Shown here in pieces: positions 1,556-36,476 of a stretch of 64,000 nucleotides of DNA. The DNA is taken from the NCBI RefSeq assembly GCF_001187915.1, contig NZ_LGIU01000043.1, positions 1 to 64,000 on the forward strand, in the 5' to 3' direction. The notes beneath the pieces are model-generated. The model was given only the letters and a program-made list of their open reading frames with translations, was not told the origin of the DNA and ran no database searches. Position 1 is the stretch's first letter. Each line of letters begins with the position of its first letter. A program made the position numbers and the translations under genes. This stretch comes from Arthrobacter sp. RIT-PI-e. GTDB taxonomy: Bacteria; Actinomycetota; Actinomycetes; Actinomycetales; Micrococcaceae.

Positions 1556-2548
1556 TCAGGCGGTGACGACGGCGTCCCCGCGGTCGGCCACACCGAGGTC
1601 GCCCCGGTGGCCGGCGGCCACGGCCCGCCGGCCGAGCACCAGCGTGTACACCCAGTAGGCGGCGAAGACGAGGAGGCCGATGGTGATGCGCGCCCAGGTG
1701 GGCAGCGGGCTCGGCGTCACGAAACCCTCCACCAGCCCGGACACCAGGAGCACCAGGACCAGCCCCAGCGCCACCGTGATGAGGGCACGGCCCTCCTCGG
1801 CCAACGCCACCGAACGCGGCCTCCGACCGGGCGCCACCCAGGCCCAGAAGATGCGCAGACCCGCCGCGGTGGCGATGAAGATGGCGGTGAGCTCCATGAA
1901 ACCGTGCGGCAGGATGTAGGCGAAGAACACGTCGAGGCGGTCGTAGGAGGCCATCATGCCCGCCGCCATCCCGATGCCCTGGGCGTTCTGGTACAGGATG
2001 AACGCCGGCCAGATCCCCGTGACGCCGAAGGCGACGGCCTGGAGCGCGATCCACGCGTTGTTCGTCCAGACGAGTCCGGCGAAGGAGGCCGCCGGGTTCT
2101 CCGAGTAGTAGTCCACGAAGTCCTCCTCCACGTAGCGCCGGAGGTCCTCGTCGGGTCCGATCGCCTGGATCACGCCCGGCGTCTGCACCACCCACATCCC
2201 GTACAGCCAGGTCACCAGGAGGAAGACGAGGCCGACCACGACGGTGAGCCACCGGATCCGGTAGAAGGCCGCCGGCAGGGAGTGGACGAAGAAGCCGGCC
2301 ATGTCCTCCATGGCGTTGGAGCGGGCGCCGGTGAAACGGGTGCGGGCCCGCGAGAGCCGGGTGGAGAGGGAACCGGACACGGCGCTCTCGGGATCCACGG
2401 ACCGCAGGACGGACAGATGGGTGGACACCCGCTGGTAGAGCACCAGCAGTTCGTCGGCCTCCGCGCCGTCGAGCCTGCGCCGGCCCACCAGCTCGTCCAG
2501 CCGCTGCCAGTCGCCGCGGTGCACGGCGATGAAAGCATCCACATCCAT
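1556..2548 (-). CDS. Stage II sporulation protein M (SpoIIM/DUF95) family membrane protein
   Basis: A 330-residue protein. It has a soluble N-terminal segment of ~100 residues (starting MDVDAFIAVHRGDW, with a helical stretch YQRVSTHLSVLR) followed by several transmembrane helices and the DUF95-type motif FILPHGFMELTAIFIA-like ILPHGFMELTAIFIATAA. In non-sporulating actinobacteria this family accompanies RDD proteins and MoxR/DUF58 genes. An RDD gene lies divergently here, matching that association. Its cellular role is not established. The ATG at 2548 has TAGGGT exactly at -12 to -7, suggesting a leaderless transcript. Confidence 0.85.
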   Translation of the reverse strand: MDVDAFIAVHRGDWQRLDELVGRRRLDGAEADELLVLYQRVSTHLSVLRSVDPESAVSGSLSTRLSRARTRFTGARSNAMEDMAGFFVHSLPAAFYRIRWLTVVVGLVFLLVTWLYGMWVVQTPGVIQAIGPDEDLRRYVEEDFVDYYSENPAASFAGLVWTNNAWIALQAVAFGVTGIWPAFILYQNAQGIGMAAGMMASYDRLDVFFAYILPHGFMELTAIFIATAAGLRIFWAWVAPGRRPRSVALAEEGRALITVALGLVLVLLVSGLVEGFVTPSPLPTWARITIGLLVFAAYWVYTLVLGRRAVAAGHRGDLGVADRGDAVVTA

Positions 2549-2554
2549 GCGTTC

Positions 2555-2560
2555 ACCCTA
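2555..2560 (-). promoter_or_regulatory. Candidate leaderless -10 element of spoIIM-like gene
   Basis: TAGGGT, then six bases (GAACGC), then ATG. This spacing puts transcription initiation at or next to the start codon. Confidence 0.5.
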
Positions 2561-2735
2561 TAGTCACGGCTCCCCTCCCGGGCGTAGCCGCGGCGCTCCC
2601 GGGCGGGGCCCCCGGCCCAGGACCGGACCACCGGGGTCGATCACCGGCGGGCATACCGCGCGGCGGACCGCTCCGGCGCTAGGCTGGTCGGAGCGTCGAG
2701 GGGACGGGCACCGGAGGAACCGGGAGGGGAGCACC

Positions 2736-3536
2736 ATGAGTTCGATCGTGACCGGCGAGGCGGTGGTGCTCGAGCTCAGACCGGCCGGTTTCGCCGCGCG
2801 CGGGCTGAGCATCCTGATCGACATCGTGGCGCAGATCGTCCTCGCGATCCTGCTGGTGCTCCTGATCGGCAACGTGCTCGGCGGTGCCCTGGACCCGGCG
2901 CTCACCGGCGCGGTGGTGCTGATCAGCGTCGTCCTGCTCCTGCTGGTGATCCCCGTGACCGTGGAGACCCTCACCCGCGGGAAGTCCCTCGGCCGCCTCG
3001 TGACGGGCCTGCGGATCGTGCGCGACGACGGCGGTGCCATCCGCTTCCGCCACGCCTTCATCCGCGGCATGCTGGCGATCCTCGAGATCTACATCCTCGC
3101 GGGATCCCTGGCCTTCCTCGTCTCCCTGTTCAACGAGCGCTCCAAGCGCCTCGGGGACCTCCTGGCCGGCACCTACGCCATGCGGGAGCGCGTGGTGGTG
3201 CGTCCGCGTGCACTGGCCGTGCTTCCACCGCGCCTCACCCCGTGGGCGGCGACGGCGGACATCGGGCGCCTCCCGGACCCGCTGGCCCGCCGGATGTCGC
3301 AGTTCCTCGCGCAGGCCCCGCGGCTCACCCCGCAGGCACGCCACACGCTGTCGGTGGAGCTCGCCGCCGAGGCCGCGCAGCACGTGTCCCCTCCCCCGCC
3401 GGAGGGGACACGTCCGGAGGAGTTCCTGCACGGGGTGATCGCCTCGCGCCGGGACCGCGACTACGCGGCGATGATGCGGCAGCGCGAGCGCTCCGAGGCC
3501 ACGGCGGAGCGGCTCCACCGGCTGCCGTTCGGGTGA
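2736..3536 (+). CDS. RDD family membrane protein
   Basis: A 266-residue protein with an RDD domain in the first ~150 residues. The signature Arg and Asp residues appear in RPAGFAARGLSILIDIVAQ, and a third conserved element is GKSLGRLVTGLRIVRDDGG. Hydrophobic helices sit around residues 23-50, 55-80 and 115-135. The last ~100 residues are charged and soluble. The ATG at 2736 is preceded by GGGAGGGGAG. RDD proteins are proposed transport-related or membrane-remodelling proteins, but function here is unknown. The divergent SpoIIM-like neighbour is the usual partner. A TAGGCT about 55 bases upstream could be the -10 of a leadered transcript. Confidence 0.88.
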   Translation: MSSIVTGEAVVLELRPAGFAARGLSILIDIVAQIVLAILLVLLIGNVLGGALDPALTGAVVLISVVLLLLVIPVTVETLTRGKSLGRLVTGLRIVRDDGGAIRFRHAFIRGMLAILEIYILAGSLAFLVSLFNERSKRLGDLLAGTYAMRERVVVRPRALAVLPPRLTPWAATADIGRLPDPLARRMSQFLAQAPRLTPQARHTLSVELAAEAAQHVSPPPPEGTRPEEFLHGVIASRRDRDYAAMMRQRERSEATAERLHRLPFG

Positions 3537-3561
3537 TGCGCACCTGACCGTGCCGCCCCGG

Positions 3562-5603: not shown

Positions 5604-6188
5604 TCACCCGATCGTGCGGATCACACGGGCGGGGTTGCCGACGGCGAGGACGCCGGCCGGGATGTCCCTGGTGACCACCGCACCGGCGCCGATCACCGAG
5701 TTCGCCCCGATGGTCACGCCCGGGCACACGATCACCCCGCCACCGAGCCAGACGTTGTCCCCGATGGTGATCGGCTGTCCGGCTTCGAGCTTGTCCCGTC
5801 GCAGCTGCGGATCGATCGGGTGCGTGGGCGTCAGGAGCTGGACGTTCGGTCCGATCTGGCAGTCGTCACCGATGGTGATGGCCACGACGTCCAGGGCGGT
5901 GAGGTTGTAGTTGACGAAGGTACCGGCCCCGACGCGGATGTTCTCGCCGTAGTCCACGAACAGGGGCGGGGTGATGTGGGATCCCTCCCCGAGGCCGCCC
6001 AGGAGATCCACGAGGATCTCGCGCGCCCCTGGATCACCCGCCACGTCCGCGCGGTGATAGGCATCGGCGAGCTGGACCCCGCGCCGGTGGAGCCGTCCGC
6101 TCTCGGGGTCGTCGGCGATGTAGAGGTCCCCGGCGAGCATCCGCTCCCGGTTGCTCCGGGGGTCGCCGGTGAAGTAGTCCGTGGTCAT
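5604..6188 (-). CDS. Maltose/galactoside-type O-acetyltransferase (left-handed beta-helix)
   Basis: A 194-residue acetyl-CoA-dependent sugar acetyltransferase of the LacA/Maa/NodL type. The N-terminal Mac domain (SNRERMLAGDLYIADDPE) is followed by hexapeptide repeats, including ITIGDDCQIGPNVQLLTPTH, whose TPTHP block carries the conserved catalytic His, and ITIGDNVWLGGGVIVCPGV. Length is normal for the family. The ATG at 6188 has TAGATT at -12 to -7, so it is probably leaderless. It is followed at four bases by tetR and divergent from an MFS gene, suggesting a substrate-modification and transport module. Confidence 0.9.
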   Translation of the reverse strand: MTTDYFTGDPRSNRERMLAGDLYIADDPESGRLHRRGVQLADAYHRADVAGDPGAREILVDLLGGLGEGSHITPPLFVDYGENIRVGAGTFVNYNLTALDVVAITIGDDCQIGPNVQLLTPTHPIDPQLRRDKLEAGQPITIGDNVWLGGGVIVCPGVTIGANSVIGAGAVVTRDIPAGVLAVGNPARVIRTIG

Positions 6189-6194
6189 GGGGTG

Positions 6195-6200
6195 AATCTA
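6195..6200 (-). promoter_or_regulatory. Candidate leaderless -10 element of the acetyltransferase-tetR operon
   Basis: TAGATT, then CACCCC, then ATG on the minus strand. It lies 13 bases from the palindrome at 6213-6224, so a regulator bound there would occlude this promoter. Confidence 0.55.
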
Positions 6201-6212: not shown

Positions 6213-6224
6213 GTACGATCGTAC
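6213..6224. promoter_or_regulatory. 12-bp perfect palindrome, candidate TetR operator
   Basis: GTACGATCGTAC is its own reverse complement. It sits in the ~110-base divergent region between the acetyltransferase-tetR operon and the MFS gene. Position and symmetry fit an autoregulatory TetR operator; binding is an inference. Confidence 0.5.
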
Positions 6225-9975: not shown

Positions 9976-9981
9976 TAGAGT
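9976..9981 (+). promoter_or_regulatory. Candidate leaderless -10 element of zincin-like gene
   Basis: TAGAGT, six bases (TTCCGT), then the ATG at 9988. Confidence 0.5.
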
Positions 9982-9987: not shown

Positions 9988-10482
9988 ATGCAGGATGCTT
10001 CGAGCTTCTCGGTGGAGCTGGACGACCCGACGGCGCAGCCGGGCCGTGGATCCCGTTCGTTCTACGAGCGGCGGCGCAACCGCCGCGGGCGGGGCCTGCG
10101 CGGAGAGTTGCTGCCGCGGCACCTCCCCGGCTCGCGCTCACGCTCCGAGCAGTTCGACGACTGGGTGATGGAGTCCGCCCAGCGCCTCGAGCGCCTGTGG
10201 GGCGAGCGCATCCAGGATCTCCAGATCGTGGTGCAGGAGATCCCCGACGGGCTCGAGGACATGAGTCCCCGGACCCTGCGCGGGCTCCGGGGTTCCTCCC
10301 GGCCCGCCGCTCCGGGGAGCCCCGCCGTCATCCCCGTCTACCGGCACCCGGTTCTCATGGCGGCCCGCTCGCTGATGCCGGTGAACGAACTGGTCCACGA
10401 CGTGGTGGTGGAACAGACCGCCGAACTGATGGGGCTGTCACCGGAGGCGGTGGACCCCGCCTACGGTCGCTCGCAGGCCTGA
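9988..10482 (+). CDS. Metallopeptidase-family (zincin-like) protein with altered HExxH motif
   Basis: A 164-residue protein of the small zincin family (PF06262 type) that lies beside DUF3499 in actinobacteria. The N-terminal ~55 residues are Arg-rich and probably disordered. The core follows from FDDWVMESAQRLERLWGER through LQIVVQEIPDG. Where canonical members have HExxH, this protein reads VHDVVVEQTAELMGLSPE, so the zinc motif is not intact and peptidase activity is doubtful. The ATG at 9988 has TAGAGT at -12 to -7 and no leader. Confidence 0.8.
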   Translation: MQDASSFSVELDDPTAQPGRGSRSFYERRRNRRGRGLRGELLPRHLPGSRSRSEQFDDWVMESAQRLERLWGERIQDLQIVVQEIPDGLEDMSPRTLRGLRGSSRPAAPGSPAVIPVYRHPVLMAARSLMPVNELVHDVVVEQTAELMGLSPEAVDPAYGRSQA

Positions 10483-12972: not shown

Positions 12973-12978
12973 TACCCT
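12973..12978 (+). promoter_or_regulatory. Candidate leaderless -10 element of purK
   Basis: TACCCT, six bases, then GTG at 12985. Measured to the ATG at 12982 the gap is only three bases, so this element favours the GTG as the real start. Confidence 0.4.
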
Positions 12979-12981: not shown

Positions 12982-14178
12982 ATGGTGACTTCTCCCGTGA
13001 TAGGTGTGGTGGGCGGCGGCCAGCTGGCGCGCATGATGGCGAGCCCGGCGATCGAGCTCGGCTTCGGGCTCCGCGTCCTGGCGGAAGGGCCCGGGGTGTC
13101 CGCCGTCGCCGCCGTGGCGTCCGCCACCGTGGGCGACTACCGCGACGCCGACACGCTGCGCGCGTTCGCCGCGGGCGTGGACGTGGTGACCTTCGACCAC
13201 GAGCACGTCCCGGGCGAGCTGCTCGAGCAGCTCACCCGGGAGGGCGTTCGCGTCCATCCCTCCCCCGCAGCACTCCGCCACGCACAGGACAAGCTGGTGA
13301 TGCGGCGTGCCGTCGAGGAGCTCGGCCTGCCCAACCCGCGGTGGGCCGCGGTCCGGGACGCCTCCGGCGTCGAGGCCTTCGCGGCCTCCGTGGGCTGGCC
13401 CGTGGTGCTGAAGACGCCGCGTGGCGGGTACGACGGCAAGGGAGTGCTGGTCCTGCGCGACACCGCGGCCCTGGCCGCCGCGGAGAGCTGGTTCTCGCAC
13501 GAAGAGCTCCTCGTGGAGCAGTTCGTCCCGTTCAGCCGGGAACTCTCGGTGCTGGTGGCCCGGCGCGCTTCGGGTGAGTCCGCCGCCTGGCCCGTGGTGG
13601 AGTCCATCCAGGTGGACAGCGTGTGCGACGAGGTGATCGCCCCCGCCCCCGACCTGCCCGCGGACGTGGCTGCCCGCGTGACGGAGGCCGCGCTGAAACT
13701 GGCCGAGGAACTCGACGTCACCGGCGTCATGGCGGTGGAGCTCTTCGAGGTACCCGGCTCCGGTGCCGGCTACCTCGTCAACGAACTCGCCATGCGACCC
13801 CACAACTCCGGGCACTGGACCATGGACGGCGCGGTGACCGGGCAGTTCGAGCAGCACCTGCGGGCCGTCCTGGACCTCCCGCTCGGCTCGACCGACCTCG
13901 TGGGCCCCTGCGCCGTGATGAAGAACGTGCTGGGCGGACGCAACGAGGACCTCCACGCCGCCTACGGTGCAGCGCTGGCCGCGGACCCCGCCGCCAAGGT
14001 GCACGTCTACGGGAAGGACGTACGCCCGGGCCGGAAGATCGGTCACGTGAACGCCCTGGCGGGTCCCGGTGAATCCGTGGACTCCGTGCGTGCCAGGGCC
14101 ACGCGGGTGGCCGCGCTGCTGCGCGAGGGCGCACAGGACCTCCCCACCGGAAACGCAGGACGAAAGGGTGCACAGTGA
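12982..14178 (+). CDS. purK: 5-(carboxyamino)imidazole ribonucleotide synthase
   Basis: A 398-residue ATP-grasp enzyme of purine biosynthesis converting AIR, bicarbonate and ATP to N5-CAIR. The N-terminus [17 protein letters not shown] is the family hallmark. ATP-grasp elements include [19 protein letters not shown] and the metal-site region [19 protein letters not shown]. The start is ATG 12982 or GTG 12985; the latter lies twelve bases from TACCCT and may be leaderless. The stop overlaps the purE start as GTGA, indicating translational coupling; purE uses the product. Confidence 0.97.
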
Positions 14179-17822: not shown

Positions 17823-18863
17823 CTAGGCGCGGGCGCGCACCCTCCGCGCCAGGTCGACGGCGCGTCCGGCCTGCCGGCGTCCGAGCTGCATCCCGCGCTT
17901 GGCGAGCGGCAGCGCCCTGCTGAACAGCGGGTAGAGGGGTGAGAGCGGGAGGTCCCAGGTGCCTGCGAGCTGGTCCTCGTGCTGCGCCCAGCCCATCTTG
18001 AAGCGTGAGACGCCGTCGTTGAGCAGTCCGTTGAAGTCGTAGCGCTGCACCCCGCGCGCCTTCATCTCGAGGATCGCGAACCACTTCAGGGCGTAGTTGG
18101 CGCGCAGGCGCTCCCCCTCCTCGGTCATCCCGCCGTAGAGCTCGAAGGAGGTGGAGCCGGTCGCGGAGAGCCACAGGAAGGCGACGACGTCGGTGCCCCG
18201 GAACGCCGCGTACACGGGCGAGGCCTCACCGAGGTTGTCCGCGATGTCGTGGTAGTAGGAGCTCTCGTGGATCCCGAAGCCCGCGCGCTCCGCGGTCAGC
18301 CGGTAGACCGCGAGGCAGGCGTCGATCTCGCCGCGCTCCACCCTGCGGATGTCCAGGCCCTCGCGGCCGGACTTCCGGATGTACTGGCGGTGCTTCTTGG
18401 TCATGTCCGCGAGCAGGTCCTCCTCGGACCGGCGGAGGTCCAGGATCAGCGTGCGCCCGATCAGGATGGTGTTCTCGCTGGGCCTCCACCCTGCCGCGGG
18501 CAGGGCCCGCACGGCGGTGGCTCCCGCGTCCCAGTCCGGCTCGATCGAGAGCGCCACCGAGCGGTGGGCGGCCCGCACGTACCCGGCGATCGCCCGGAGC
18601 ACCTCGACCTCGCGCCCGGGAACCGTCTGCGGCCCGCGAGGCGCGTAGGCCAGGCTCCGCAGGGGCAGCGGAAGGGACTTCAGGACCAGCTGCGCCGATC
18701 CGATCACCTCGCCCGCCTCGGAGACGATCACGCGGTCGGCCGTCCACCCGTGGGAGGCCTTGGTGGCACCCCACCCCCACAGCTGCTGGGGATGGCCCGC
18801 GAGCCCGTCGACGGTGCTGTCCCAGAGGACGGGGTCGGAGCAGGGCGACACGGTGAGACTCAT
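17823..18863 (-). CDS. FemX/FemAB-type peptidoglycan bridge aminoacyltransferase
   Basis: A 346-residue GNAT-fold transferase of the FemABX family, which adds amino acids from aminoacyl-tRNA to the lipid II stem peptide. Recognisable blocks are QLWGWGATKASHGW, LRSLAYAPRGP, DMTKKHRQYIRKSGREG, AFLWLSATGSTSFELYGGM and YDFNGLLNDGVSRFKMGWA, the last being the typical end of the second GNAT domain. A basic C-terminal tail follows. The amino acid transferred cannot be told. The ATG at 18863 has TAGGCT at -12 to -7 with no leader. The upstream glpX terminator (18878-18914) makes this an independent unit. Confidence 0.88.
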   Translation of the reverse strand: MSLTVSPCSDPVLWDSTVDGLAGHPQQLWGWGATKASHGWTADRVIVSEAGEVIGSAQLVLKSLPLPLRSLAYAPRGPQTVPGREVEVLRAIAGYVRAAHRSVALSIEPDWDAGATAVRALPAAGWRPSENTILIGRTLILDLRRSEEDLLADMTKKHRQYIRKSGREGLDIRRVERGEIDACLAVYRLTAERAGFGIHESSYYHDIADNLGEASPVYAAFRGTDVVAFLWLSATGSTSFELYGGMTEEGERLRANYALKWFAILEMKARGVQRYDFNGLLNDGVSRFKMGWAQHEDQLAGTWDLPLSPLYPLFSRALPLAKRGMQLGRRQAGRAVDLARRVRARA

Positions 18864-18869: not shown

Positions 18870-18875
18870 AGCCTA
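18870..18875 (-). promoter_or_regulatory. Candidate leaderless -10 element of femX-like gene
   Basis: TAGGCT, six bases (GGTCCG), then ATG on the minus strand. Confidence 0.55.
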
Positions 18876-19965: not shown

Positions 19966-20103
19966 GTCTATCCTCATCGTCGAAGGGAGGTCTGTACGGG
20001 GCGTACGTCCTGCTCCCTGCAGTCTAGGCGTCCACGGTGGGGACGGGGCATGATGACGTCCGGGGAGCTGACGGTCCGGTTAGGCGGCGCGGCCGGCATC
20101 GGC

Positions 20104-20109
20104 GAAAAT
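20104..20109 (+). promoter_or_regulatory. Candidate leaderless -10 element of DUF4245 gene
   Basis: GAAAAT, six bases, then GTG at 20116. It deviates from TANNNT at the first base but has the same spacing as the other candidates. Confidence 0.35.
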
Positions 20110-20115
20110 GGAGGG

Positions 20116-20865
20116 GTGAGTGATCAAGGCGACGAGCGCAGTCCATCGACCCCCCGCGACTCCCCCGCGGACGGGCGTCCGGTTCCCGGTGGTGCGGACG
20201 GACGTGCGGGCGAACGTGCTGCGGCGGAGGCACGGCTGCGTGCGGAACTGTACGACGACGCACCCCCCATCTCCCTCACCGCGAACCAGGCCAAGCGTCT
20301 CAGCGCCACTGCGCGAGGCATGCTCCTGGCCACCGGGGCGACGCTCGCCGTCGTCCTCCCCGTGTACTTCCTGAACCCCACCCACACCGCGGAGACCTAC
20401 CGCCAGGACATCGACGTGGCCAACGTGGCGCGGCAGGCCGCGGGGGACGCCGGGTACCTGCCGGCCGCCCCCGAGCTCCCGGAGGGCTGGTCCTCGAACT
20501 ACGCACGCTGGAACACCGGCAGCTCCGACGGGGTGGCCTTCTGGGAGGTCGGGTACCTGACCGGGGACGACGGGTTCATCGAGCTCACGCAGACCGACCG
20601 GGCGAACCCCACCTGGGAGGCCCGGCGCATCGGGAGCGCCCAGGTCTCGGGGTCCCGGACCATCGGCGGGGAGGACTGGGAACTGCTCGACGCGAGCAAC
20701 GGCGACACGGTGCTCCGGACGGACCTGGACGGCGCCACGATCATCCTGAAGGGCCCCGCCGAGCTCACCGATTTCGACACCCTGGGCGAGGCGGTGACGC
20801 AGGAGGTGGCGCAGAACGCCGTCGACGAGGCCGAGCGGCTCTCCTCCGACGGAGCGGGCGGCTGA
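20116..20865 (+). CDS. DUF4245 domain membrane-anchored protein
   Basis: A 249-residue actinobacterial protein. A disordered N-terminus (~55 residues) precedes one membrane helix (ATARGMLLATGATLAVVLPV) followed by YFLNPTHTAETYRQDIDV, the typical DUF4245 entry. The extracytoplasmic domain contains AAPELPEGWSSNYARWN and WEVGYLTGDDGFIELTQT. Function unknown. GTG 20116 is chosen from the GAAAAT element twelve bases upstream; in-frame ATGs at 20050 and 20053 are less likely. Carbonic anhydrase starts 18 bases downstream; the order DUF4245-carbonic anhydrase-fumC beside glpX looks like conserved central-metabolism context. Confidence 0.85.
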   Translation: MSDQGDERSPSTPRDSPADGRPVPGGADGRAGERAAAEARLRAELYDDAPPISLTANQAKRLSATARGMLLATGATLAVVLPVYFLNPTHTAETYRQDIDVANVARQAAGDAGYLPAAPELPEGWSSNYARWNTGSSDGVAFWEVGYLTGDDGFIELTQTDRANPTWEARRIGSAQVSGSRTIGGEDWELLDASNGDTVLRTDLDGATIILKGPAELTDFDTLGEAVTQEVAQNAVDEAERLSSDGAGG

Positions 20866-20871: not shown

Positions 20872-20877
20872 TACAGT
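20872..20877 (+). promoter_or_regulatory. Candidate leaderless -10 element of carbonic anhydrase gene
   Basis: TACAGT, six bases, then GTG at 20884. It would allow transcription independent of the DUF4245 gene, which ends seven bases before it. Confidence 0.45.
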
Positions 20878-20883: not shown

Positions 20884-21498
20884 GTGACGACACGATCGAC
20901 GCCCGGCGAGGCCTGGCTCCGCCTCCAGGAGGGCAACGCGCGCTTCGTGGGGGCGCAGGTCTCCCACCCCAACCAGGACGCGTCCCGGCGGACGGCCCTG
21001 GTCAACGACCAGCACCCGTTCGCGGTCATCTTCGGCTGCTCGGACTCGCGGCTGGCCGCGGAGATCATCTTCGACCTCGGCCTCGGCGACGTGTTCGTGG
21101 TGAGGACGGCGGGCCAGGTGATCGACGACGCCGTGCTCGGTTCCCTGGAGTACAGCGTGAGCGTGCTGAAGGTCCCGCTGATCGTGATCCTCGGTCACGA
21201 CAGCTGCGGTGCGGTGATGGCCACCATGAACGCCCTCGACAGCGGCGACATGCCCACCGGGTTCCTGCGGGACCTCGTGGAGCGGATCACCCCGTCCGTG
21301 CTCACGGCGCGCCGCACCGGTGTCACCGATGTGAACTCGACGGTGATCGAGCACACGAAGCAGACCTCCAAGCGCCTGATCGACAGCTCACGGGTGATCG
21401 CCGAGGCCGTGGCGGAGGGCTCGGTGGCCGTGGTGGGCGTGTCCTACCGGCTCGACGAGGGCAAGGCGGTGCTCGTCTCGGGATTTGGTGCACTGTAG
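20884..21498 (+). CDS. Beta-class carbonic anhydrase
   Basis: A 204-residue zinc enzyme hydrating CO2 to bicarbonate. The beta-class signature is complete: [15 protein letters not shown] supplies the first Cys and the Asp-Arg dyad, and [15 protein letters not shown] supplies the His and second Cys. The length is standard and there is no signal peptide, so it is cytosolic. Bicarbonate supply for carboxylases, including the purK step, is a plausible role. It starts with GTG 20884 behind TACAGT and is followed 23 bases later by fumC. Confidence 0.93.
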
Positions 21499-21509: not shown

Positions 21510-21515
21510 GAGAAT
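21510..21515 (+). promoter_or_regulatory. Candidate leaderless -10 element of fumC
   Basis: GAGAAT, six bases, then ATG at 21522. It has the same spacing but a G in place of the first T. Confidence 0.35.
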
Positions 21516-21521: not shown

Positions 21522-22979
21522 ATGACTCCGACGACTGCAGCCAGCCCTGATCCCAGCTCCCCCACCGGCGACGCCGGGTACCGCATCGAGCACGACACCA
21601 TGGGCGAGGTGCGGGTCCCCGTGAACGCCCTGTACCGGGCGCAGACCCAGCGCGCGGTGGAGAACTTCCCCATCTCCGGAACCACGCTGGAGCGCGCGCA
21701 CATCGAGGCCCTGGCACGGATCAAGAAGGCCGCGGCCACGGCGAACGCCGAGCTGGGCGTGCTCGACGACGAGCGGGCCCGCGCCATCGAGGCCGCCGCG
21801 GAGGACGTGGCCTCGGGCCGGTACGACGGCGACTTCCCGGTGGACATCTACCAGACCGGCTCCGGGACCTCCTCGAACATGAACGCCAACGAGGTGATCG
21901 CCACCCTGGCGAGCCGCGCCCTGGAGAGCGCCGGCAGCAGCACCACGGTGCACCCGAACGACCACGTGAACGCCTCGCAGTCCTCCAACGACGTCTTCCC
22001 CACCTCCGTGCACGTCGCTGCCACGTCCGCGCTGGTGAAGGACCTCGTGCCCGCCCTGACGCATCTCGCCGAGGCCCTGGAGCGCAAGGCGACGGAATTC
22101 GCCACGGTGGTGAAGTCCGGGCGCACCCACCTCATGGACGCGACCCCCGTGACCCTCGGCCAGGAGTTCGGCGGGTACGCGGCGCAGGTGCGCTACGGCA
22201 TCGAGCGGATCCACGCCTCCCTGGCCCGCGTGGCCGAGGTGCCCCTCGGCGGCACGGCCGTGGGCACGGGCATCAACACGCCCGCCGGTTTCTCCGCCCG
22301 CGTGATCGAGCTCCTCGCCGAGGACACCGGGCTGCCGCTCACGGAGGCCCGCGACCACTTCGAGGCCCAGGCCAACCGGGATTCCCTCGTGGAGATCTCC
22401 GGCATGCTGCGCACCATCGCGGTGTCCCTGACCAAGATCCACAACGACCTGCGCTGGCTCGGCTCCGGCCCCAACACGGGTCTCGGCGAGATCGCCCTGC
22501 CGGACCTGCAGCCCGGGTCGTCGATCATGCCCGGGAAGGTGAACCCGGTGATCGCCGAGGCCGTCATCATGGTCTGCGCGCAGGTGGTGGGCAACGACGC
22601 CACCGTGGCGTGGTCCGGGACCAACGGTGCGTTCGAGCTCAACGTGGGCATCCCCGTCATCGCGCGCAACGTCCTCGAGTCCATCCGGCTCCTCAGCAAC
22701 TCCACCCGGGTGTCCGCGGACCGCATGGTCGACGGCATCACCGCCAACGTGGAGCGTGCCCGCTTCCTCGCCGAGGCCTCCCCCTCGATCGTGACGCCGC
22801 TCAACAAGTACATCGGCTACGAGAACGCCGCGAAGATCGCGAAGAAGGCCGTGGCCGAGGGCCTCACGGTGCGCGAGGCCGTCGTCGCCCTCGGGTTCGT
22901 GGAGCGCGGCGAGCTCACCGAGGAGCAGCTGGACTCGGCCCTCGACGTCCTGTCGATGACCCGGCCGCCGCAGGCCTGA
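21522..22979 (+). CDS. fumC: Class II fumarate hydratase
   Basis: A 485-residue tetrameric TCA-cycle enzyme converting fumarate and malate. The superfamily signature [16 protein letters not shown] is present. [14 protein letters not shown] and [17 protein letters not shown] are the other two conserved regions that build the active site. The length is typical. There is no ribosome-binding sequence; GAGAAT lies at -12 to -7. Two hairpins follow the stop (22989-23012 and 23022-23056). Confidence 0.97.
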
Positions 22980-26088: not shown

Positions 26089-26595
26089 TCAGCGTAGTAC
26101 AGCGAGCGCCAGGGCCGCCCCGAGGATCAGGAACGGCCCGAACGCCACGGCGGACCCGAGACCGGCCCTGCCCGTGAGCACGAGCCCGAGGCTCCAGAGA
26201 CCGCCCAGCAGGATCGCGAAGCACGGCCCCCACCACAACTCCTGCCACCCCGCGAAGCCGAGGTAGAGCCCCAGCAGGCCCGCCAGCTTGACGTCGCCGA
26301 ACCCGAGGCCGCGCCGGTCGAGAAGATGCAGCAGCTCGAAGCCGACCCAGAGCACCGCGCAGCCCACCAGCATGCCGAGGATCCGGTGCCACTGCCCGGC
26401 GAGCGCGGCGGCCGCCCCGAGCAGCACGGCGACCCAGGGGTAGGAGGGCAGGACGATCCGGTTCGGCAGCCGGTGCGTCCGCGCATCGATCACGCTCAGC
26501 AGCGCCCCCACCCCGACGAACCCCGCGAGCGCGACGGTGAGGAGGAACCCCGCGACAGGGACCTCGATCCAGTAGGAGGTCAGGACCGTGAGCAC
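26089..26595 (-). CDS. Prepilin-peptidase-like (A24) aspartic protease
   Basis: A 168-residue polytopic membrane protein of the type IV prepilin peptidase/preflagellin family. Both catalytic Asp motifs are visible: SVIDARTHRLPN, and the GxGD-type block GLGFGDVKLAGLLG. It lacks the N-terminal methylase domain, as do actinobacterial TadV-like forms. No pilin, tad or com gene lies in the window. The GTG at 26595 has TAGCGT at -12 to -7. The NUDIX gene starts five bases after its stop, so the two are probably co-transcribed. Confidence 0.85.
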   Translation of the reverse strand: MLTVLTSYWIEVPVAGFLLTVALAGFVGVGALLSVIDARTHRLPNRIVLPSYPWVAVLLGAAAALAGQWHRILGMLVGCAVLWVGFELLHLLDRRGLGFGDVKLAGLLGLYLGFAGWQELWWGPCFAILLGGLWSLGLVLTGRAGLGSAVAFGPFLILGAALALAVLR

Positions 26596-26601
26596 GCCCC
26601 C

Positions 26602-26607
26602 ACGCTA
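26602..26607 (-). promoter_or_regulatory. Candidate leaderless -10 element of prepilin-peptidase gene
   Basis: TAGCGT, six bases (GGGGGC), then GTG on the minus strand. Confidence 0.45.
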
Positions 26608-26641
26608 CGCGACGCCCGCGGACGGTGAGGAGGCCCGTGGC

Positions 26642-26647
26642 TAGACT
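26642..26647 (+). promoter_or_regulatory. Candidate leaderless -10 element of the hypothetical gene at 26654
   Basis: TAGACT, six bases (GTGGAG), then ATG at 26654. It selects ATG 26654 over the in-frame GTG at 26648. Confidence 0.5.
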
Positions 26648-26653
26648 GTGGAG

Positions 26654-27409
26654 ATGTCGGCCCAGCGAAGCCCCCTTCCCGCGGAGACGTTCCGCTCCCT
26701 GGCGCGCTCCTCCCCCTGGCGCTGGGAGAGTCTGCGCTTCGCCATCTCCTGGCGTGGCACCGCAGGGGGTGGGGCCCGGCCCGCCCAGCCGCTGCTGGCG
26801 TGGCTCCGCAGACCCGCAGCACTGCGGGTGGAGGACGCGGACGGCACCCTGCTCCACTGCTCCACGGGGAACGAGGGCTCGCGCGACGCGCTCTACGTGA
26901 GCTCCACCCGGAAGTCCTGGCTCGTGGCCCCCCGGCTCGTGACCCCCGTGTACGACGACGCCGGGCTGGTGCGGCGCAGACCCGAGGCGGCCTACGGCGA
27001 GGCGGTGTTCGGCGACCCCCGCTGGTCCTCCGTGCTGGACCCCGTGGAACTGGCCGGGAACGCCCCGGTGGCCATGGAGTTCCCGGGGGCCAACCGGGTG
27101 GAGCTCTCCGACCTCGCGGAGGAGCGGTTCGCCGGGCGGCCGGTCCTCGCGGCGACCGTGGTCCCCAACCACACCTACCTCCCCACCGCCGCGGGCCACC
27201 CCCTGGTGGGCCCCGGGCACACCCGCGTCCTGGTGGACACGGGGACCGGGATCTGCGTGTCCACGACCGCACTGGACGGAGCGCACCCGGGGGCCGGCCA
27301 CGAGCTGCGGATCCTCGCCGTGGACGAGTACCTGACGGACGACCACTTCCAGGCGGCTCCGCCCGAGCTCAGTGACGTCAGCGTCCACGTCCCCTGGATC
27401 GTGGGCTGA
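26654..27409 (+). CDS. Hypothetical soluble protein, no recognised family
   Basis: A 251-residue protein I do not recognise. There is no signal peptide or convincing membrane helix. It is rich in charged residues, with segments such as RWESLRFAISWRGTAG and LYVSSTRKSWLVAPRLVTPV. A C-terminal half has regular hydrophobic/charged spacing (VLAATVVPNHTYLPTAAGHP) suggesting a beta-rich fold. Codon use and GC look like its neighbours, and the leaderless start and length argue for a real gene. It stands alone between the divergent prepilin peptidase and convergent phoH. Confidence 0.7.
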   Translation: MSAQRSPLPAETFRSLARSSPWRWESLRFAISWRGTAGGGARPAQPLLAWLRRPAALRVEDADGTLLHCSTGNEGSRDALYVSSTRKSWLVAPRLVTPVYDDAGLVRRRPEAAYGEAVFGDPRWSSVLDPVELAGNAPVAMEFPGANRVELSDLAEERFAGRPVLAATVVPNHTYLPTAAGHPLVGPGHTRVLVDTGTGICVSTTALDGAHPGAGHELRILAVDEYLTDDHFQAAPPELSDVSVHVPWIVG

Positions 27410-29022: not shown

Positions 29023-29790
29023 TCAGGAACCGAAGCGGCGTTGACGGCGCCCGAAGTCCCGGAGCGCGCGGAGGAAGTCCACGCGACGGAAGTCCGGCCA
29101 CAAGGCCTCGCAGAAGTAGAACTCGCTGTAGGCGCTCTGCCACATGAGGAAGCCGGACAACCGCTGCTCCCCCGAGGTACGGATCACCAGGTCGGGGTCC
29201 TGCTGCCCCCGCGTGTAGAGGAAGGAGGAGATGTGCTGGTCGGTCAGTTCCCCGGCGAGGGACTCGAGCGACTTGCCCTGGTGGGCGGCGCCGAGCAGCA
29301 GCTCCTTGACGGCGCCCACGATCCCGCGCCGCCCGCCGTACCCCACGGCCACGTTCACGTGCAGACCGTCGATGCCCTGGGTGGAGGACGCCAGACCCAC
29401 CAGTTTGGCGCCGAGGTCCGCCGGGAGCAGATCGAGCGCCCCCACGGGCTGCACCCGCACGCGGTTGCTCCCGCCGAGGCGGTCGACGGTGTCGGCGATG
29501 ATGCCGAGCAGCTGGTCGATCTCCTCCTGGGGGCGGCCCATGTTGTCCGTGGAGAGCATGTAGAGCGTCACCACCTTCACCCCGAGCTCCTCGCACCAGC
29601 CCAGGAACTCGTGGATCTTGTCGGCACCGGCCCGGTGCCCGTGGCTCGTGGGCGCCCCGGCGAGGCGGGCCCAGCGACGATTGCCGTCCACCATGACACC
29701 GATGTGGTGCGGGATCCGCTCAGGGACGAGATTCCGCTGCAGCCTGCGCTCGTAGAAGCTGTAGCCGAGATCGGGGAACGTCCACGTCAC
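29023..29790 (-). CDS. Isoprenyl transferase (cis-prenyltransferase, UppS family)
   Basis: A 255-residue enzyme adding cis-isoprene units to make polyprenyl diphosphate carriers. Motifs: HIGVMVDGNRRWAR (the catalytic Asp and Asn-Arg), LSTDNMGRPQEEID, and the C-terminal DLVIRTSGEQRLSGFLMWQ and SEFYFCEALWPDF. Actinobacteria carry two or more paralogues of different chain length; which one this is cannot be told. GTG 29790 with GGAGGG upstream is chosen over the longer frame to 29913. It is divergent from trhA, a common adjacency in Micrococcales. Confidence 0.92.
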   Translation of the reverse strand: MTWTFPDLGYSFYERRLQRNLVPERIPHHIGVMVDGNRRWARLAGAPTSHGHRAGADKIHEFLGWCEELGVKVVTLYMLSTDNMGRPQEEIDQLLGIIADTVDRLGGSNRVRVQPVGALDLLPADLGAKLVGLASSTQGIDGLHVNVAVGYGGRRGIVGAVKELLLGAAHQGKSLESLAGELTDQHISSFLYTRGQQDPDLVIRTSGEQRLSGFLMWQSAYSEFYFCEALWPDFRRVDFLRALRDFGRRQRRFGS

Positions 29791-29965
29791 GCTTGACCAC
29801 CCTCCCTGGTCCGGATCCGGCACCTGCCGGAGGAATACGATCCGGCAAGCGCCCGCGCCCCGGCTATGTTCATACCGTACCGGCACCCCCGGGCAAAGCA
29901 CCGACGCAGCCACGGCAGGACCCGCCAGCCCGGCAGCGGCACCGTGGGGAGCCTGCGTGGTGGGC

Positions 29966-29971
29966 TAGAAT
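29966..29971 (+). promoter_or_regulatory. Candidate leaderless -10 element of trhA
   Basis: TAGAAT, six bases (CCGGAC), then ATG at 29978. This is one of the best matches among the leaderless candidates. Confidence 0.6.
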
Positions 29972-29977
29972 CCGGAC

Positions 29978-31237
29978 ATGATCTCGCGCTCCTCGGGCCC
30001 GTCAGCAGGTTCCTCGACCCCCCCGGACCGGCAGGGATCGAGGTTCGAGGACGCCGTGGACACGGTGGCCGGGCCGCTGGCGGACGCCCTGGCGGCGAAA
30101 CCGCTCTGGCGGGGATGGATCCACGCCGTCGCCACCCCCTTCGCCGTCGCCGCGGGCATCGTGCTCGTGGCACTGGCCCCCACCACCGGGCTGAAGATCG
30201 CCTCCGCGGTCTACGCACTGACCGGGATCCTGCTGTTCGGTGTGAGTGCGGTCTACCACCGGGGGAACTGGGGCCCGGGCGCCAGGGCCGTCCTGAAGCG
30301 CGTGGACCACACGAACATCATGCTGGTGATCGCCGGTTCCTACACGCCCCTGGCCTGGGCCCTGCTGGAGAGGGACAAGGCGGTCACGCTGCTCTGGGTG
30401 ATCTGGGGCGGAGCGGTGGCCGGCGTCCTGTTCCGGAACCTGTGGGTCGATGCCCCCCGATGGCTCTACGTGCCCATCTACGTGGCGCTCGGTCTCGGGG
30501 CCCTGTTCTACCTGCCCGACTTCTTCCGGGCCAGCATCGCCGCCGCGGTGCTGATCTGCGCCGGCGGCGCCCTCTACATCGCCGGGGCCGTGTTCTACGG
30601 CATCAAGCGGCCGAACTTCTCGCTCCGCGTCTTCGGTTTCCACGAACTGTTCCACGCGTTCACCGTGGCCGCGTTTGCCGCGCACTTCATCGCGATCATG
30701 CTCGGCGTGCTGAACCCCCTGCACGCCTGCCCCGCCGGCCGGCCGGTCCGCCCGCCTCAGCGGTTGCCGCACCCGCCTCAGCGGTTGTCCGGGCCGTGCT
30801 TCCCGCCCCGGGGCGGGTGGACCGTGGAGGTCGGATCGTCCGGCCGACGGTACCCGGCGGTGCCGCCGTCCGGCCCCTGCCGGATACCGGGGCCCGGACC
30901 GGGGGAGCCGTCCGCCCGCCGGCGCTGCAGGCGATTCTGCTCCGCCTCCGCGGTGTACCGCGCCCGCCGTCCCCGCTTGACCATGTCGCGGATGAGGAGG
31001 ATCACCGCCACCACCACGAGCAGCGTGGCCAGGAAGCCGACGAGGCCCGGTGTCACCGATGCCGGATCGAGGCCGGGCCGCAGGGTTGGATCGTCCGACG
31101 GCGCGGTCTGTGCGGCGAGGTGGGGCAGGGGGAACACGCGGGTACCACTTTCGGAGATCACATTTCGAAGACCACAGCGGGCCGGATGTCCCGTCACCCG
31201 CAATTCTACGCGGCGCAGAACATGCGCCGGGACCTAG
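29978..31237 (+). CDS. trhA: Hemolysin III / TrhA family membrane protein with run-on 3' frame
   Basis: A seven-helix PAQR-type protein. The conserved region covers residues ~45-250: WRGWIHAVATPFAVAAGIV, VSAVYHRGNW, KRVDHTNIMLVIAGSYTPLA and FHELFHAFTVAAFAAHFIAI; the His and Asp residues form the metal site. In this frame there is no stop after the last helix (~30725). It runs on through the whole convergent gene to 31237, giving a Pro/Arg-rich tail that has no family counterpart. A TGA one frame over at 30711-30713 suggests a lost or shifted stop. The real C-terminus is uncertain. The start is leaderless. Confidence 0.75.
   Translation: MISRSSGPSAGSSTPPDRQGSRFEDAVDTVAGPLADALAAKPLWRGWIHAVATPFAVAAGIVLVALAPTTGLKIASAVYALTGILLFGVSAVYHRGNWGPGARAVLKRVDHTNIMLVIAGSYTPLAWALLERDKAVTLLWVIWGGAVAGVLFRNLWVDAPRWLYVPIYVALGLGALFYLPDFFRASIAAAVLICAGGALYIAGAVFYGIKRPNFSLRVFGFHELFHAFTVAAFAAHFIAIMLGVLNPLHACPAGRPVRPPQRLPHPPQRLSGPCFPPRGGWTVEVGSSGRRYPAVPPSGPCRIPGPGPGEPSARRRCRRFCSASAVYRARRPRLTMSRMRRITATTTSSVARKPTRPGVTDAGSRPGRRVGSSDGAVCAARWGRGNTRVPLSEITFRRPQRAGCPVTRNSTRRRTCAGT
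30751..30787. repeat. Tandem 16-bp repeat, 21-bp period, covering a stop codon
   Basis: CCCGCCTCAGCGGTTG occurs at 30751-30766 and again at 30772-30787. On the minus strand the copy at 30772 holds the TGA stop of the small membrane gene, so its last codons and stop are duplicated just downstream. Confidence 0.7.
30778..31161 (-). CDS. Small single-pass membrane protein next to mca
   Basis: A protein of ~127 residues with one strong transmembrane helix (VTPGLVGFLATLLVVVAVIL) followed by a basic stretch RDMVKRGRRARYTAEAEQ and a Pro/Gly-rich cytoplasmic tail. Similar small proteins of the pattern VTPGxxGF-TM-basic tail accompany mca in actinobacteria; function is unknown. GTG 31161 is preferred, and an ATG at 31203 would add 14 residues. 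It follows mca on the same strand. It lies entirely opposite the run-on part of the trhA frame, which argues that the run-on is not normally coding. Confidence 0.7.
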   Translation of the reverse strand: MISESGTRVFPLPHLAAQTAPSDDPTLRPGLDPASVTPGLVGFLATLLVVVAVILLIRDMVKRGRRARYTAEAEQNRLQRRRADGSPGPGPGIRQGPDGGTAGYRRPDDPTSTVHPPRGGKHGPDNR

Positions 31238-32219: not shown

Positions 32220-32225
32220 TAAAAT
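32220..32225 (+). promoter_or_regulatory. Leaderless promoter of the DUF4307 gene
   Basis: TAAAAT, six bases (GGAGCG), then GTG at 32232. A TCGGAC 16 bases further upstream may serve as -35. Confidence 0.6.
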
Positions 32226-32231: not shown

Positions 32232-32681
32232 GTGAGCTCCGCCGATGCACCATCACCAAGAGTAGCCAATCGTTACGGCACCCCAAAGCCGAGGCAACCA
32301 CGGGGGCGCGTGCGCCTCCTGGTGGTCTCGATGCTCCTGGCCGCGATCGCCGCCGTCGCCGTGGTCGCGCTGACCACGGGGAGCCCGCGCGTCACCTACA
32401 AGGACGTCGGGTTCGCCGTCGGGGAGAACGGCAGGGCCGGCGTGGACTTCGAGGTCACCAAGGACGCCCGGGACACCGCGCAGTGCGCGGTGCAGGCCCT
32501 GAGCGAGAACTTCGCCGTGGTGGGCTGGAGCGTGGTCACGATCGGACCCACGGGCCCCGAGGACGGGCCCGACGGCGGGCGCACCACGGCGCACCGCACG
32601 GACCTCCGCACCGACTCCCCCGCGGTCTCCGGCGGGGTGGAGTCCTGCTGGATTCTCGAGGAGGCCCCGCAGCAGGCCTGA
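32232..32681 (+). CDS. DUF4307 domain membrane-anchored protein
   Basis: A 149-residue actinobacterial protein with an N-terminal cytoplasmic segment (RVANRYGTPKPRQPRGR), one membrane helix (LLVVSMLLAAIAAVAVVAL) and a small extracytoplasmic beta domain. The domain contains VTYKDVGFAVGENGRAGVDF, VTKDARDTAQCAVQALSE and SCWIL; the two cysteines could form a disulfide. Function is unknown. It is regularly found between mca and greA, as here. The start is fixed by the leaderless TAAAAT element. Confidence 0.87.
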   Translation: MSSADAPSPRVANRYGTPKPRQPRGRVRLLVVSMLLAAIAAVAVVALTTGSPRVTYKDVGFAVGENGRAGVDFEVTKDARDTAQCAVQALSENFAVVGWSVVTIGPTGPEDGPDGGRTTAHRTDLRTDSPAVSGGVESCWILEEAPQQA

Positions 32682-32739: not shown

Positions 32740-32744
32740 GGACG

Positions 32745-33387: not shown

Positions 33388-33986
33388 GCACCGAGCCCGA
33401 AGCGGTCCGTCCCCGGTGCGGGGGCGGACCGTCTCCGTCTGAGCAGAAAGGCGGCGAGGAGGCCGCCGAGGGCCCCGAAGAAGTGCGCCTGCCACGAGAT
33501 GTTCGAACCCATCACCGGCAGCACCCCCCAGAGGATGGACCCGTAGGCGGCGAACAGGATCACCGCGAGCAGGATCTGCAGCCAGTTCCGGTTGTAGAAG
33601 CCGCGGACGGTCAGGTAGGTGAACAGGCCGAACACCACCCCGGACGCCCCGATGGTGAGTCCTCCGCCGAAGACCCAGGTCCCGAGACCCGAGACCGACC
33701 AGCTGAGGCCGATCGCCACCGCGAAACGCCGGGCCCCCTCGAGGAAGGCGACGAAGCCGAGCACCAGCAGCGGCAGGCTGTTGCTGGCGAGATGCCCGAT
33801 GCCCGAGTGCAGGAGCGGCGCGAAGAGCACGCCGTCGAGCCCGGAGAGCTGCCGCGGGGCTATCCCCAGGTTCCGCACCAGGCTGTTGCCCAGCAGCGAG
33901 TTGAGCAGGAAGACCGCCCACATCACCACCACGAGGCCTCCGACGGTGATGAGACCGGTCTGCGCCCTTCTCGCCAGAGGTGCCAT
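33384..33986 (-). CDS. Rhomboid-family intramembrane serine protease
   Basis: A 200-residue six-helix rhomboid. The catalytic Ser is in GASGVVFGLFTYL and the His in NISWQAHFFGALGGLLAAF. HLASNSLPLLVLG provides the conserved His/Asn of the oxyanion region. The typical WR motif of loop 1 is not obvious. The ATG at 33986 lies two bases after the ilvA stop, so the pair is co-transcribed. The stop overlaps greA by four bases (CTAG). The substrate is unknown. Confidence 0.9.
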   Translation of the reverse strand: MAPLARRAQTGLITVGGLVVVMWAVFLLNSLLGNSLVRNLGIAPRQLSGLDGVLFAPLLHSGIGHLASNSLPLLVLGFVAFLEGARRFAVAIGLSWSVSGLGTWVFGGGLTIGASGVVFGLFTYLTVRGFYNRNWLQILLAVILFAAYGSILWGVLPVMGSNISWQAHFFGALGGLLAAFLLRRRRSAPAPGTDRFGLGA

Positions 33987-33988
33987 GA

Positions 33989-35287: not shown

Positions 35288-35312
35288 GGGAGGTCTCTTC
35301 CTGGAGGGCTGA

Positions 35313-35339
35313 CACCGCCTCGGGCGGTGGGGATGTCAG
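35313..35339 (-). other. Hairpin in the ilvA 5' region
   Basis: CACCGCC and GGCGGTG form a 7-bp stem with a 3-base loop (35313-35329). CTGACA/TGTCAG can extend it across a small bulge to 35339. It lies 26-52 bases upstream of the ilvA start. No leader peptide or T-box features were recognised. Confidence 0.3.
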
Positions 35340-35550
35340 GGGTGCTGGCCGACGAACGCCTCAGGTTCCGTACCCTGGGGTCGTCGGCCTGCTAATGCCC
35401 GGTCCAGGATCCCGCAGCCGGCGGCCCTCCGCGGGCGTGCCGGCATGCGCCGACCCCCGCGGGGCCGGGCCGTGCGGCAGTGCCCGTACGGCTTCCGCTC
35501 CCCGGAGAGACTCCATGGTCCAATCCTCCCACAGGAGGCCCCGGCGCCGG

Positions 35551-36464
35551 CTACCCGAGTGAGGGCAGGATGCCCCAGCGGGCGGAGAACGTCTCGCCGG
35601 GTGCGAGCCGGCGCAGCCCCTCCCCCGTGTTGAACGCGTTGGCGGGAGCCGTCATGGGCTCCACCGCCACGGCCCTGCTGACTCCGGGGTAGATGGTGCT
35701 GATGTACACGTGCACGTACTCGAAGGCGGGATCGGCCCACAGGGTCACGGTGCGGCCGTCCGGGGCTGCGAGGACGTGCTCGTGGCGCTCGGAGCCGGAG
35801 GGCAGACCGGTGAACGGGGAGTCGAACTCGATGTCCCCGATCCGCCGACCCGCGCGCAGATCCCGCTGCCCGGAGACCGCCACCTTGGCCGTGGGGATCG
35901 ACCTCTCGTCCGTATCGAAGACCTCGTCCGCGAGGACCGTGAGCACGAGGTCCTCGGTGGGGACGTCGGAGATCTTCAGGTACGGGTGCGCGCCGAGCGC
36001 GAAGGGTGCCGCGGTGGCGGAGAGATTGGTGAGCTCCTGCGTGACCGTGAGCTGCTCCTGAGTGAGGTGGTACGTGGCGCGGTGCACGAGGTGGAACGGG
36101 TACCCGTGCTGCGGGAAGATCTCACCCTCGAGGACCACCTCGGCGTCCCCCACGTGCACCGGGCGGTACCCGGTGTTGCGCAGCAGTCCGTGGCTCGCGT
36201 TCCCCAGGGAGGGCTCGGTGATGTCCAGGCGCTGCTCCTCGCCCTCCAGCGTCCACCGTCCGTCGGCGATGCGGTTGGGCCAGGGGGCCGGCAGGATCTC
36301 GGCCCCGCCCGCGGGGATGGAATCGTCCCCCCAGGCCCCCGCCACCGCCCCCCCCCCCTGCTCGTACGGGCGCGGCGGGGGGGCGGACTGGCCCCCCCCC
36401 CGGGGGAGGCCCCCGCCGTGAGGACGTAGTTCGTACCACTGGGGGGGCGGCTCGAGGGTGTCAT
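35551..36464 (-). CDS. galM: Aldose 1-epimerase (galactose mutarotase-like), 5' end corrupted
   Basis: This enzyme interconverts alpha and beta aldohexose anomers, supplying alpha-galactose to GalK. From ~36310 downward the body is intact: ILPAPWPNRIADGRW, NASHGLLRNTGYRPV (His), GAHPYLKISDVPTEDLV (His) and VAVEPMTAPANAFNTGEGL (Glu base). The likely start is ATG 36464, twelve bases after TAGCAT, giving MTPSSRPPSGTNYVLTAG. That frame differs from the body frame, and the intervening ~36340-36430 is a block of long G and C runs reading as nonsense in every frame. At least one frameshift is present. It is divergent from deoR-galT-galK. Confidence 0.8.
36346..36430. other. Anomalous poly-G/poly-C block inside galM
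   Basis: The stretch contains several runs of seven or more C or G within less than 90 bases, unlike normal coding sequence here. It coincides with loss of the galM reading frame and of the conserved epimerase N-terminal strands. Confidence 0.7.
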
Positions 36465-36470
36465 GCTGCG

Positions 36471-36476
36471 ATGCTA
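36471..36476 (-). promoter_or_regulatory. Candidate leaderless -10 element of galM
   Basis: TAGCAT, six bases (CGCAGC), then ATG at 36464 on the minus strand. It independently supports 36464 as the start. Confidence 0.55.

Follow-up and report, generated by a model that had tools for sequence, protein, structure and literature searches.

A recurrent -10-like hexamer 12 or 13 bases before start codons points to leaderless transcripts in Arthrobacter sp. RIT-PI-e

The window, a stretch of 64,000 nucleotides of contig NZ_LGIU01000043.1 of Arthrobacter sp. RIT-PI-e, raises the question of whether a hexamer that recurs at a set distance before start codons is a promoter element giving mRNAs without a leader, or whether its position reflects the way in which the start codons were chosen. 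The first-pass annotation had listed 13 genes with a -10-like hexamer at -12 to -7 of the start codon, eleven of them fitting TANNNT, and both counts hold. Specifically, a direct check of the sequence placed all 13 hexamers at -12 to -7, with TANNNT exactly at -12 in 11 genes and GAAAAT and GAGAAT in that place in the DUF4245 gene and fumC, respectively. The genes are:

1556-2548 (-), SpoIIM-family gene (Pfam PF01944); TAGGGT at 2555..2560, 12 bases before ATG 2548
5604-6188 (-), hexapeptide acetyltransferase gene (Pfam Hexapep/Mac); TAGATT at 6195..6200 before ATG 6188
9988-10482 (+), zincin-like protease gene (PF06262); TAGAGT at 9976..9981 before ATG 9988
12985-14178 (+), purK (Pfam match); TACCCT at 12973..12978 before GTG 12985
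17823-18863 (-), femX-like gene (PF02388); TAGGCT at 18870..18875 before ATG 18863
20116-20865 (+), DUF4245 gene (PF14030); variant GAAAAT at 20104..20109 before GTG 20116
20884-21498 (+), carbonic anhydrase gene (PF00484); TACAGT at 20872..20877 before GTG 20884
21522-22979 (+), fumC (Pfam match); variant GAGAAT at 21510..21515 before ATG 21522
26089-26595 (-), prepilin-peptidase-like gene (PF01478); TAGCGT at 26602..26607 before GTG 26595
26654-27409 (+), uncharacterised gene, divergent from the prepilin-peptidase gene, its product having no Pfam match; TAGACT at 26642..26647 before ATG 26654
29978-31237 (+), trhA, HlyIII family (PF03006); TAGAAT at 29966..29971 before ATG 29978
32232-32681 (+), DUF4307 gene (PF14155); TAAAAT at 32220..32225 before GTG 32232
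(-), galM; TAGCAT at 36471..36476 before ATG 36464, the frame being lost downstream in this assembly

To set these positions against a larger sample, we used 744 kb that included the window and made up 21.5% of the genome, called starts there blind to the upstream sequence, and took the 410 genes whose neighbour was divergent or whose gap was 60 bases or more. TANNNT stood at -12 in 28 of the 410, compared with a mean of 1.95 and a maximum of 5 per control offset (-60 to -21), giving a Poisson P of about 7e-23; in the window alone, five of 37 promoter-blind starts had it, compared with 0.275 (P about 1e-5). Enrichment at -12 over shifted positions, which the first-pass annotation had named as a check on its reading, was thus found in the 744 kb sample, and its view that so fixed a spacing is unlikely by chance in such GC-rich DNA was borne out. 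A scan that used no gene calls, counting TANNNT-Nn-ATG with spacers of 0 to 20, gave 60 occurrences at N6 and 34 at N7, whereas the remaining 19 spacers averaged 14.5, and over the whole genome TANNNT-N6-ATG occurred 295 times and the reversed pattern 107 times. No such spacing peak was found for GTG in the scan without gene calls, with 38 occurrences at N6 and a range of 19-42 at other spacers.

A free-spacing model of 622 genes, started from TANNNT with a flat position, placed the hexamer mainly at -12 (0.69) and -13 (0.24), and learned the matrix T0.75 A0.89 G0.58/C0.24 N N T0.95. It assigned 105 of the 622 genes to the hexamer class. When the upstream DNA was shuffled once, the second class of the model was also filled (28%), without a positional peak at -12; because the shuffled control also fills the class, the genome share of 16% is soft, and the case therefore rests on the positions and the orthologues. 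Two further cases in the window lie beyond the 13 genes, the former, a clear one, outside the span of the first-pass annotation:

48034-49473 (-), pyridine-nucleotide oxidoreductase gene (PF07992); TAGCAT at 49480..49485 before ATG 49473, model probability 0.97
(-), GTG 56871, preceded in the -13 register by TAGGCT at 56879..56884, model probability 0.94

The hexamer is conserved across the genus. For eight listed genes, compared by hand tally in ten congeners with the start of each window gene taken as in the first-pass annotation, TANNNT at -12 or -13 was present in 68 of 71 aligned orthologues, whereas 20 other called genes had it in 1 of 151 orthologues, counts that are not independent because the congeners are partly close relatives (G009/G012 and G008/G010). 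By gene, the hexamer was found at -12 in 10/10 orthologues of purK and 9/9 of the 26654 gene, and at -12 or -13 in 7/7 aligned orthologues of the zincin-like protease gene (one unaligned), 9/9 of femX (one unaligned), 8/8 of the prepilin-peptidase-like gene (one unaligned) and 8/8 of trhA (two unaligned). All ten carbonic anhydrase orthologues had it, four at -12 and six at -13, and in one of 17 congeners it lay one base beyond -13; outside the genus it was absent in the seven relatives examined. For the DUF4307 gene, seven of ten orthologues had it at -12 or -13 and the other three had TAAAAT or TAAACT at -14. Among 29 order-level loci of purK, 14 (one being a congener) had the hexamer, four more had it at other in-frame starts, seven had none and in four no start was found.

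The hexamers of SpoIIM, galM, DUF4245 and fumC were likewise conserved among relatives. TANNNT at -12 or -13 was present in 18 of the 19 SpoIIM loci examined in relatives (17/17 congeners), and TAGCAT preceded the matching N-terminus of galM at -12 or -13 in the 12 closest of 19 loci, any in-frame start being accepted. Of 19 acetyltransferase loci examined, the four nearest in sequence (60-72% identity) had TANNNT at -12 or -13; of the other 15, ten had unaligned N-termini, one had no start and four had no hexamer. In the ten congeneric genomes (raw counts, any upstream in-frame start accepted), DUF4245 had an in-frame GTG with GAAAAT or GACAAT at -12 in 10/10, and fumC had NANNNT at -12 or -13 in 10/10 (eight GAGAAT, one AAGAAT and one CACAAT). 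Taken together, 18 of the 20 sites in relatives were GANAAT, the other two being AAGAAT and CACAAT, with NANNNT at -12 or -13 in 20/20, TANNNT in 0/20 and T never at position 1. It is conceivable, if rather unlikely, that this GANAAT sub-type represents deliberately weakened leaderless promoters or promoters of another sigma factor.

Both the hexamer and its register are kept across the genus, whereas the DNA upstream is kept much less. Column identity was 0.71-1.00 within the hexamer, whose positions 1, 2 and 6 the search itself fixed. It was 0.57-0.76 over the five preceding bases and 0.31-0.50 beyond these. Shine-Dalgarno-like 4-mers were nearly absent, occurring in 2 of the 71 orthologues of the eight genes compared with 96 of the 151 of the other called genes; by model class the figures were 10/87 in the hexamer class and 255/293, a comparison that is partly circular, as the classes compete. 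The first-pass annotation had the hexamer exactly 12 bases before the start codon. Twelve is indeed the main spacing, but 13 is a regular second register, used in 10 of the 410 genes of the 744 kb sample and in 19 of the 68 conserved orthologues.

It was also claimed that the 13 genes lead transcription units, which goes too far as a statement on all of them and seems clear for the ten that have a divergent neighbour. The femX-like gene, 61 bases after a same-strand gene, is borderline, and carbonic anhydrase and fumC, at 18 and 23 bases, do not clearly lead units; these two may be read as part of an operon upstream as well.

The pattern might be suspected of being an artefact of selection, the starts having been picked so as to satisfy the rule, with TAG at -12 being no more than the stop codon, in the same frame, at which the reading frame opens. 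An in-frame stop does lie exactly at -12 in nine of the 13 genes, the first-pass annotation itself stated that the rule had decided some starts, and only the five of 37 noted above had the hexamer among promoter-blind starts in the window. However, TACNNT, which is not a stop, also peaked at -12 (10/410, compared with 0-2 at the other 14 listed offsets), whereas TGA showed no peak (2 at -12, as many as 6 at other offsets), and there was no rise at the frame-compatible offsets -6, -9, -15 and -18. In orthologues, moreover, the hexamer is retained even where it has moved to -13 and so into another frame. The TAC/TGA comparison and the -13 register in orthologues rule the artefact out as the main cause, and we regard it as very improbable. 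G at position 3 was as common in the -13 class (14/21) as at -12 (36/65), which speaks against the artefact and lends no support to an in-frame TAG stop as a selected function.

The hexamers could also be real promoters, but with another codon as the true start or with transcription beginning mostly elsewhere, leaving short or long leaders in many genes. Carbonic anhydrase and fumC, so close behind same-strand genes, would fit such a view, as would the preference of the gene model for other starts of purK, DUF4245, DUF4307 and galM. For most genes, however, orthologous N-termini line up at the same start; the hexamer also keeps 6-7 bases from the start codon, and Shine-Dalgarno-like sequence is nearly absent. 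We give this explanation only a slight chance. As to the claim that the -10 rule decides start codons, the orthologues back its choice for purK, DUF4245, trhA and galM, but in this assembly galM start 36464 and the Pfam-matching rest of galM are in different frames. Least probable of all, to the point of being negligible, is a role of the hexamer as an A/T-rich signal for translation, a thought suggested by its lying near the usual ribosome-binding distance; the learned matrix, TANNNT with a nearly free middle, is the actinobacterial -10 consensus (PMC3160421, PMC3898074). The hexamer also occurred in a larger share of the genes that have a divergent neighbour (51/194) than of the same-strand genes whose gap is 60 bases or more (31/216).

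We therefore favour, with a probability of roughly 94%, the reading that the hexamers are -10 elements giving leaderless mRNA, with a predicted +1 that falls on the first base of the start codon or no more than one base away; judged computationally, the original proposal holds, -12 to -7 being the canonical place of a -10 element for a +1 at the start codon. The promoters would be of the ordinary, presumably sigma-A, type, at which RNA polymerase would read mainly a -10 box T-A-G/C-N-N-T, G-rich just downstream, with no fixed -35. Transcription would start 6-7 bases past the box, yielding an mRNA with neither leader nor Shine-Dalgarno site, on which the ribosome would begin at a 5'-terminal AUG or GUG. 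The -35 boxes, which had been described as mostly poor, are so: in the 65 genes of the -12 class no clear -35 consensus or TTGACA-like enrichment was seen, sequences with at least four matches peaking at 4/65 at -35, compared with 0-3 elsewhere. Nor did a consensus for a hidden -35 or an extended -10 stand out clearly, TG preceding the hexamer in 6/65 genes of the -12 class and 0/21 of the -13 class. C at -1 was discarded as support for the +1, as it was no more frequent (0.59) than before Shine-Dalgarno starts (0.56).

In mycobacterial reporters, a 5'-terminal ATG or GTG sufficed and TTG was poor (PMC4633059, presumably Shell et al. 2015). Similarly, the 105 hexamer-class genes, with inferred leaderless starts, had 74 ATG, 31 GTG and 0 TTG, although TTG was rare in the other model classes too (8/517); that study rests on reporters and ribosome profiling, whereas the starts here come from sequence. 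Leaderless genes are reported from 86 of 89 genomes of actinobacteria, at about 20% (Zheng et al. 2011, PMC3160421). In Mycobacterium tuberculosis, 26% of those genes that have a primary start site are reported as leaderless (Cortes et al. 2013, PMC3898074). The TA-led genes of Zheng et al., for which high-GC actinobacteria carry TAnnnT some 10 bases ahead of the start codon, resemble those described here, and nothing substantial differs, except that the -12/-13 register shift is here shown for named genes. M. tuberculosis likewise has a TANNNT -10 and no -35 consensus, but its 5' ends were measured. By title and abstract opening, no published 5'-end mapping in a close relative was apparent for Brachybacterium/Micrococcales.

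The pattern is thus real but already well documented in Actinobacteria, and it is ordinary because TAnnnT leaderless genes, at about 20% of genes, have been published for them; the understanding of leaderless expression is unchanged. What is added is a genus-wide set of conserved, probably leaderless genes, including purK, whose layout recurs at 14 of 29 order-level loci. The -10 rule, at -12 or -13, is of use in annotation: it fixes starts that a codon-usage gene caller missed, and the orthologues agree.

All 13 of the -10-like hexamers listed by the first-pass annotation were read in the sequence at -12 to -7 of the proposed starts, and 11 of them fit TANNNT, the other two being those of DUF4245 (GAAAAT) and fumC (GAGAAT). 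In nine of the 13 genes an in-frame stop lies exactly at -12 because the TAG or TAA of the hexamer is in frame, and no start further upstream is therefore possible for these nine. Pfam matches back the names SpoIIM, acetyltransferase, zincin, purK, FemAB, DUF4245, carbonic anhydrase, fumarase, prepilin peptidase, HlyIII (trhA), DUF4307 and aldose epimerase (galM, 35551-36486 frame), and no Pfam match was found for the 26654 gene.

Enrichment of TANNNT at -12 over shifted positions was assessed on 744 kb of the 3.46 Mb genome (680 kb of stretches plus the window), with genes called by codon usage alone and starts set by coding score, blind to upstream sequence. Of 642 genes called, 622 were kept after those lacking an upstream neighbour in their own stretch had been dropped; 410 had a divergent neighbour or a gap of at least 60 (gap class), leaving 212 others. 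We found that the predicted excess was present, the hexamer beginning at -12 in 28 and at -13 in 10 of the 410 gap-class genes, against a mean of 1.95 and a maximum of 5 at control offsets -60 to -21, and in 8 and 2, respectively, of the 212 other genes, against a mean of 0.3. The window alone gave 5 of 37 at -12 versus 0.275; this falls short of the 11 first listed because several genes were given a different start by the caller and because two of these 11 or more genes lie outside the gap class. When the 744 kb were scanned without gene calls, TANNNT-N6-ATG and TANNNT-N7-ATG occurred at 60 and 34 sites, versus an average of 14.5 for other spacers; GTG showed no peak at N6 (38, inside the 19-42 range of other spacers), nor did TTG, CTG, ATC or GTC. 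The whole genome holds 295 TANNNT-N6-ATG sites versus 107 for the reversed pattern.

This pattern could also arise from a stop codon at -12, an explanation countered by the following: TACNNT, which is not a stop, peaks at -12 (10/410 versus 0-2 at other listed offsets), and upstream of the called genes TGA has no peak at -12 and offsets -6, -9, -15 and -18 show no rise. A mixture model of three classes (Shine-Dalgarno, TANNNT-like, no signal) was initialised with TANNNT and a position prior flat from -40 to -6; it converged on -12 (0.69) and -13 (0.24) with the matrix T0.75 A0.89 G0.58/C0.24 N N T0.95; upstream DNA shuffled once gave a diffuse class without a positional peak. The TANNNT-like class comprised 105 of 622 genes (82 among the 410 of the gap class), starting with ATG in 74, GTG in 31 and TTG in none. 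Neither a clear -35 consensus nor an extended -10 was detected, and the two bases after the hexamer were G-rich in the -12 class (0.58 and 0.55).

Ten congeneric genomes, some close to one another, were compared across the region, taking as orthologue start the in-frame start codon nearest the position aligned with the window's start (for listed genes, that of the first-pass annotation) and ignoring the hexamer.

Orthologues with TANNNT at -12 or -13
zincin: 7/7 (1 unaligned N-terminus left out)
purK: 10/10
femX: 9/9 (1 unaligned left out)
carbonic anhydrase: 10/10
prepilin peptidase: 8/8 (1 unaligned left out)
26654 gene: 9/9
trhA: 8/8 (2 unaligned left out)
DUF4307: 7/10

Together, 68 of 71 orthologues carried the hexamer, 49 at -12 and 19 at -13, after exclusion of five with unaligned N-termini. 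For the other 20 genes called in the region that had orthologues, the count was 1/151, these including galM under a wrong downstream start, which adds one orthologue, and possibly a few more genes with misplaced starts. The spacing of exactly 12 first proposed stands as the main register, not as a rule, because the position in a given gene can shift between -12 and -13 from species to species (-13 in 19/68 orthologues).

TANNNT was absent from DUF4245 (0 of 4 aligned, 6 unaligned) and fumC (0/10) orthologues, as expected from their window hexamers; accepting any upstream in-frame start, NANNNT was present at -12/-13 in 10/10 relatives for each. The SpoIIM hexamer was found in 18/19 loci examined (congeners 17/17, outside the genus 1/2), and that of carbonic anhydrase in 16/17 congeners and 0/7 relatives outside the genus. 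For the acetyltransferase it was found in the four closest of 19 loci, the other 15 comprising 10 unaligned N-termini, one without a start and four without the hexamer. Across the order, 14 of 29 purK loci had it, plus four at other in-frame starts, with seven lacking it and four having no start found.

For galM, the hexamer was present in the 12/12 closest loci (any in-frame start accepted; seven more distant loci outside the count). The first ~20 residues of the frame from ATG 36464 resemble the N-termini of relatives, in which the gene is intact, and the Pfam match lies in a different frame; in this assembly galM is either broken or misread. Many G and C runs lie at about 36300-36420, between the two frames, and the frame loss there likely reflects an error in sequencing or assembly, or else a broken gene. 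At 20050-20116, DUF4245 has alternative in-frame ATGs upstream; the model favoured ATG 20050, with a Shine-Dalgarno-like site (probability 0.42), and the -10-like box before the GTG is conserved in ten relatives.

Two predicted leaderless genes diverge at 26595-26654, 59 bases apart, a layout kept in 9/10 relatives, the nine with both genes (56-66 bases start to start); the model assigned both genes as leaderless in 10 of 97 divergent pairs of the 744 kb. Directly 5' of the trhA -10, six of ten relatives have a TTAC-N6-GTAA inverted repeat that looks like an operator; TTAC-N5to8-GTAA sites total 15 in 380 kb, and the repeat was not found in window 29750-29990. A palindrome, GTACGATCGTAC, lies at 6213-6224 upstream of the acetyltransferase -10 and is a possible operator; GTAC-N4-GTAC sites overlap this -10 in three congeners.

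A TAnnnT signal some 10 bases ahead of the start in actinobacteria is in print, in a source that also reports leaderless genes for 86 of 89 actinobacterial genomes, with a share of around 20% (PMC3160421). In Mycobacterium tuberculosis, promoters are described as having TANNNT but no -35 consensus, and 26% of the genes with a primary start as leaderless (PMC3898074), and in mycobacteria mRNAs starting with ATG or GTG are reported to be translated, those with TTG poorly (PMC4633059). The architecture found here is a clean instance of this known phenomenon, whose consequence for start calling in Actinobacteria has already been published (PMC9581028).
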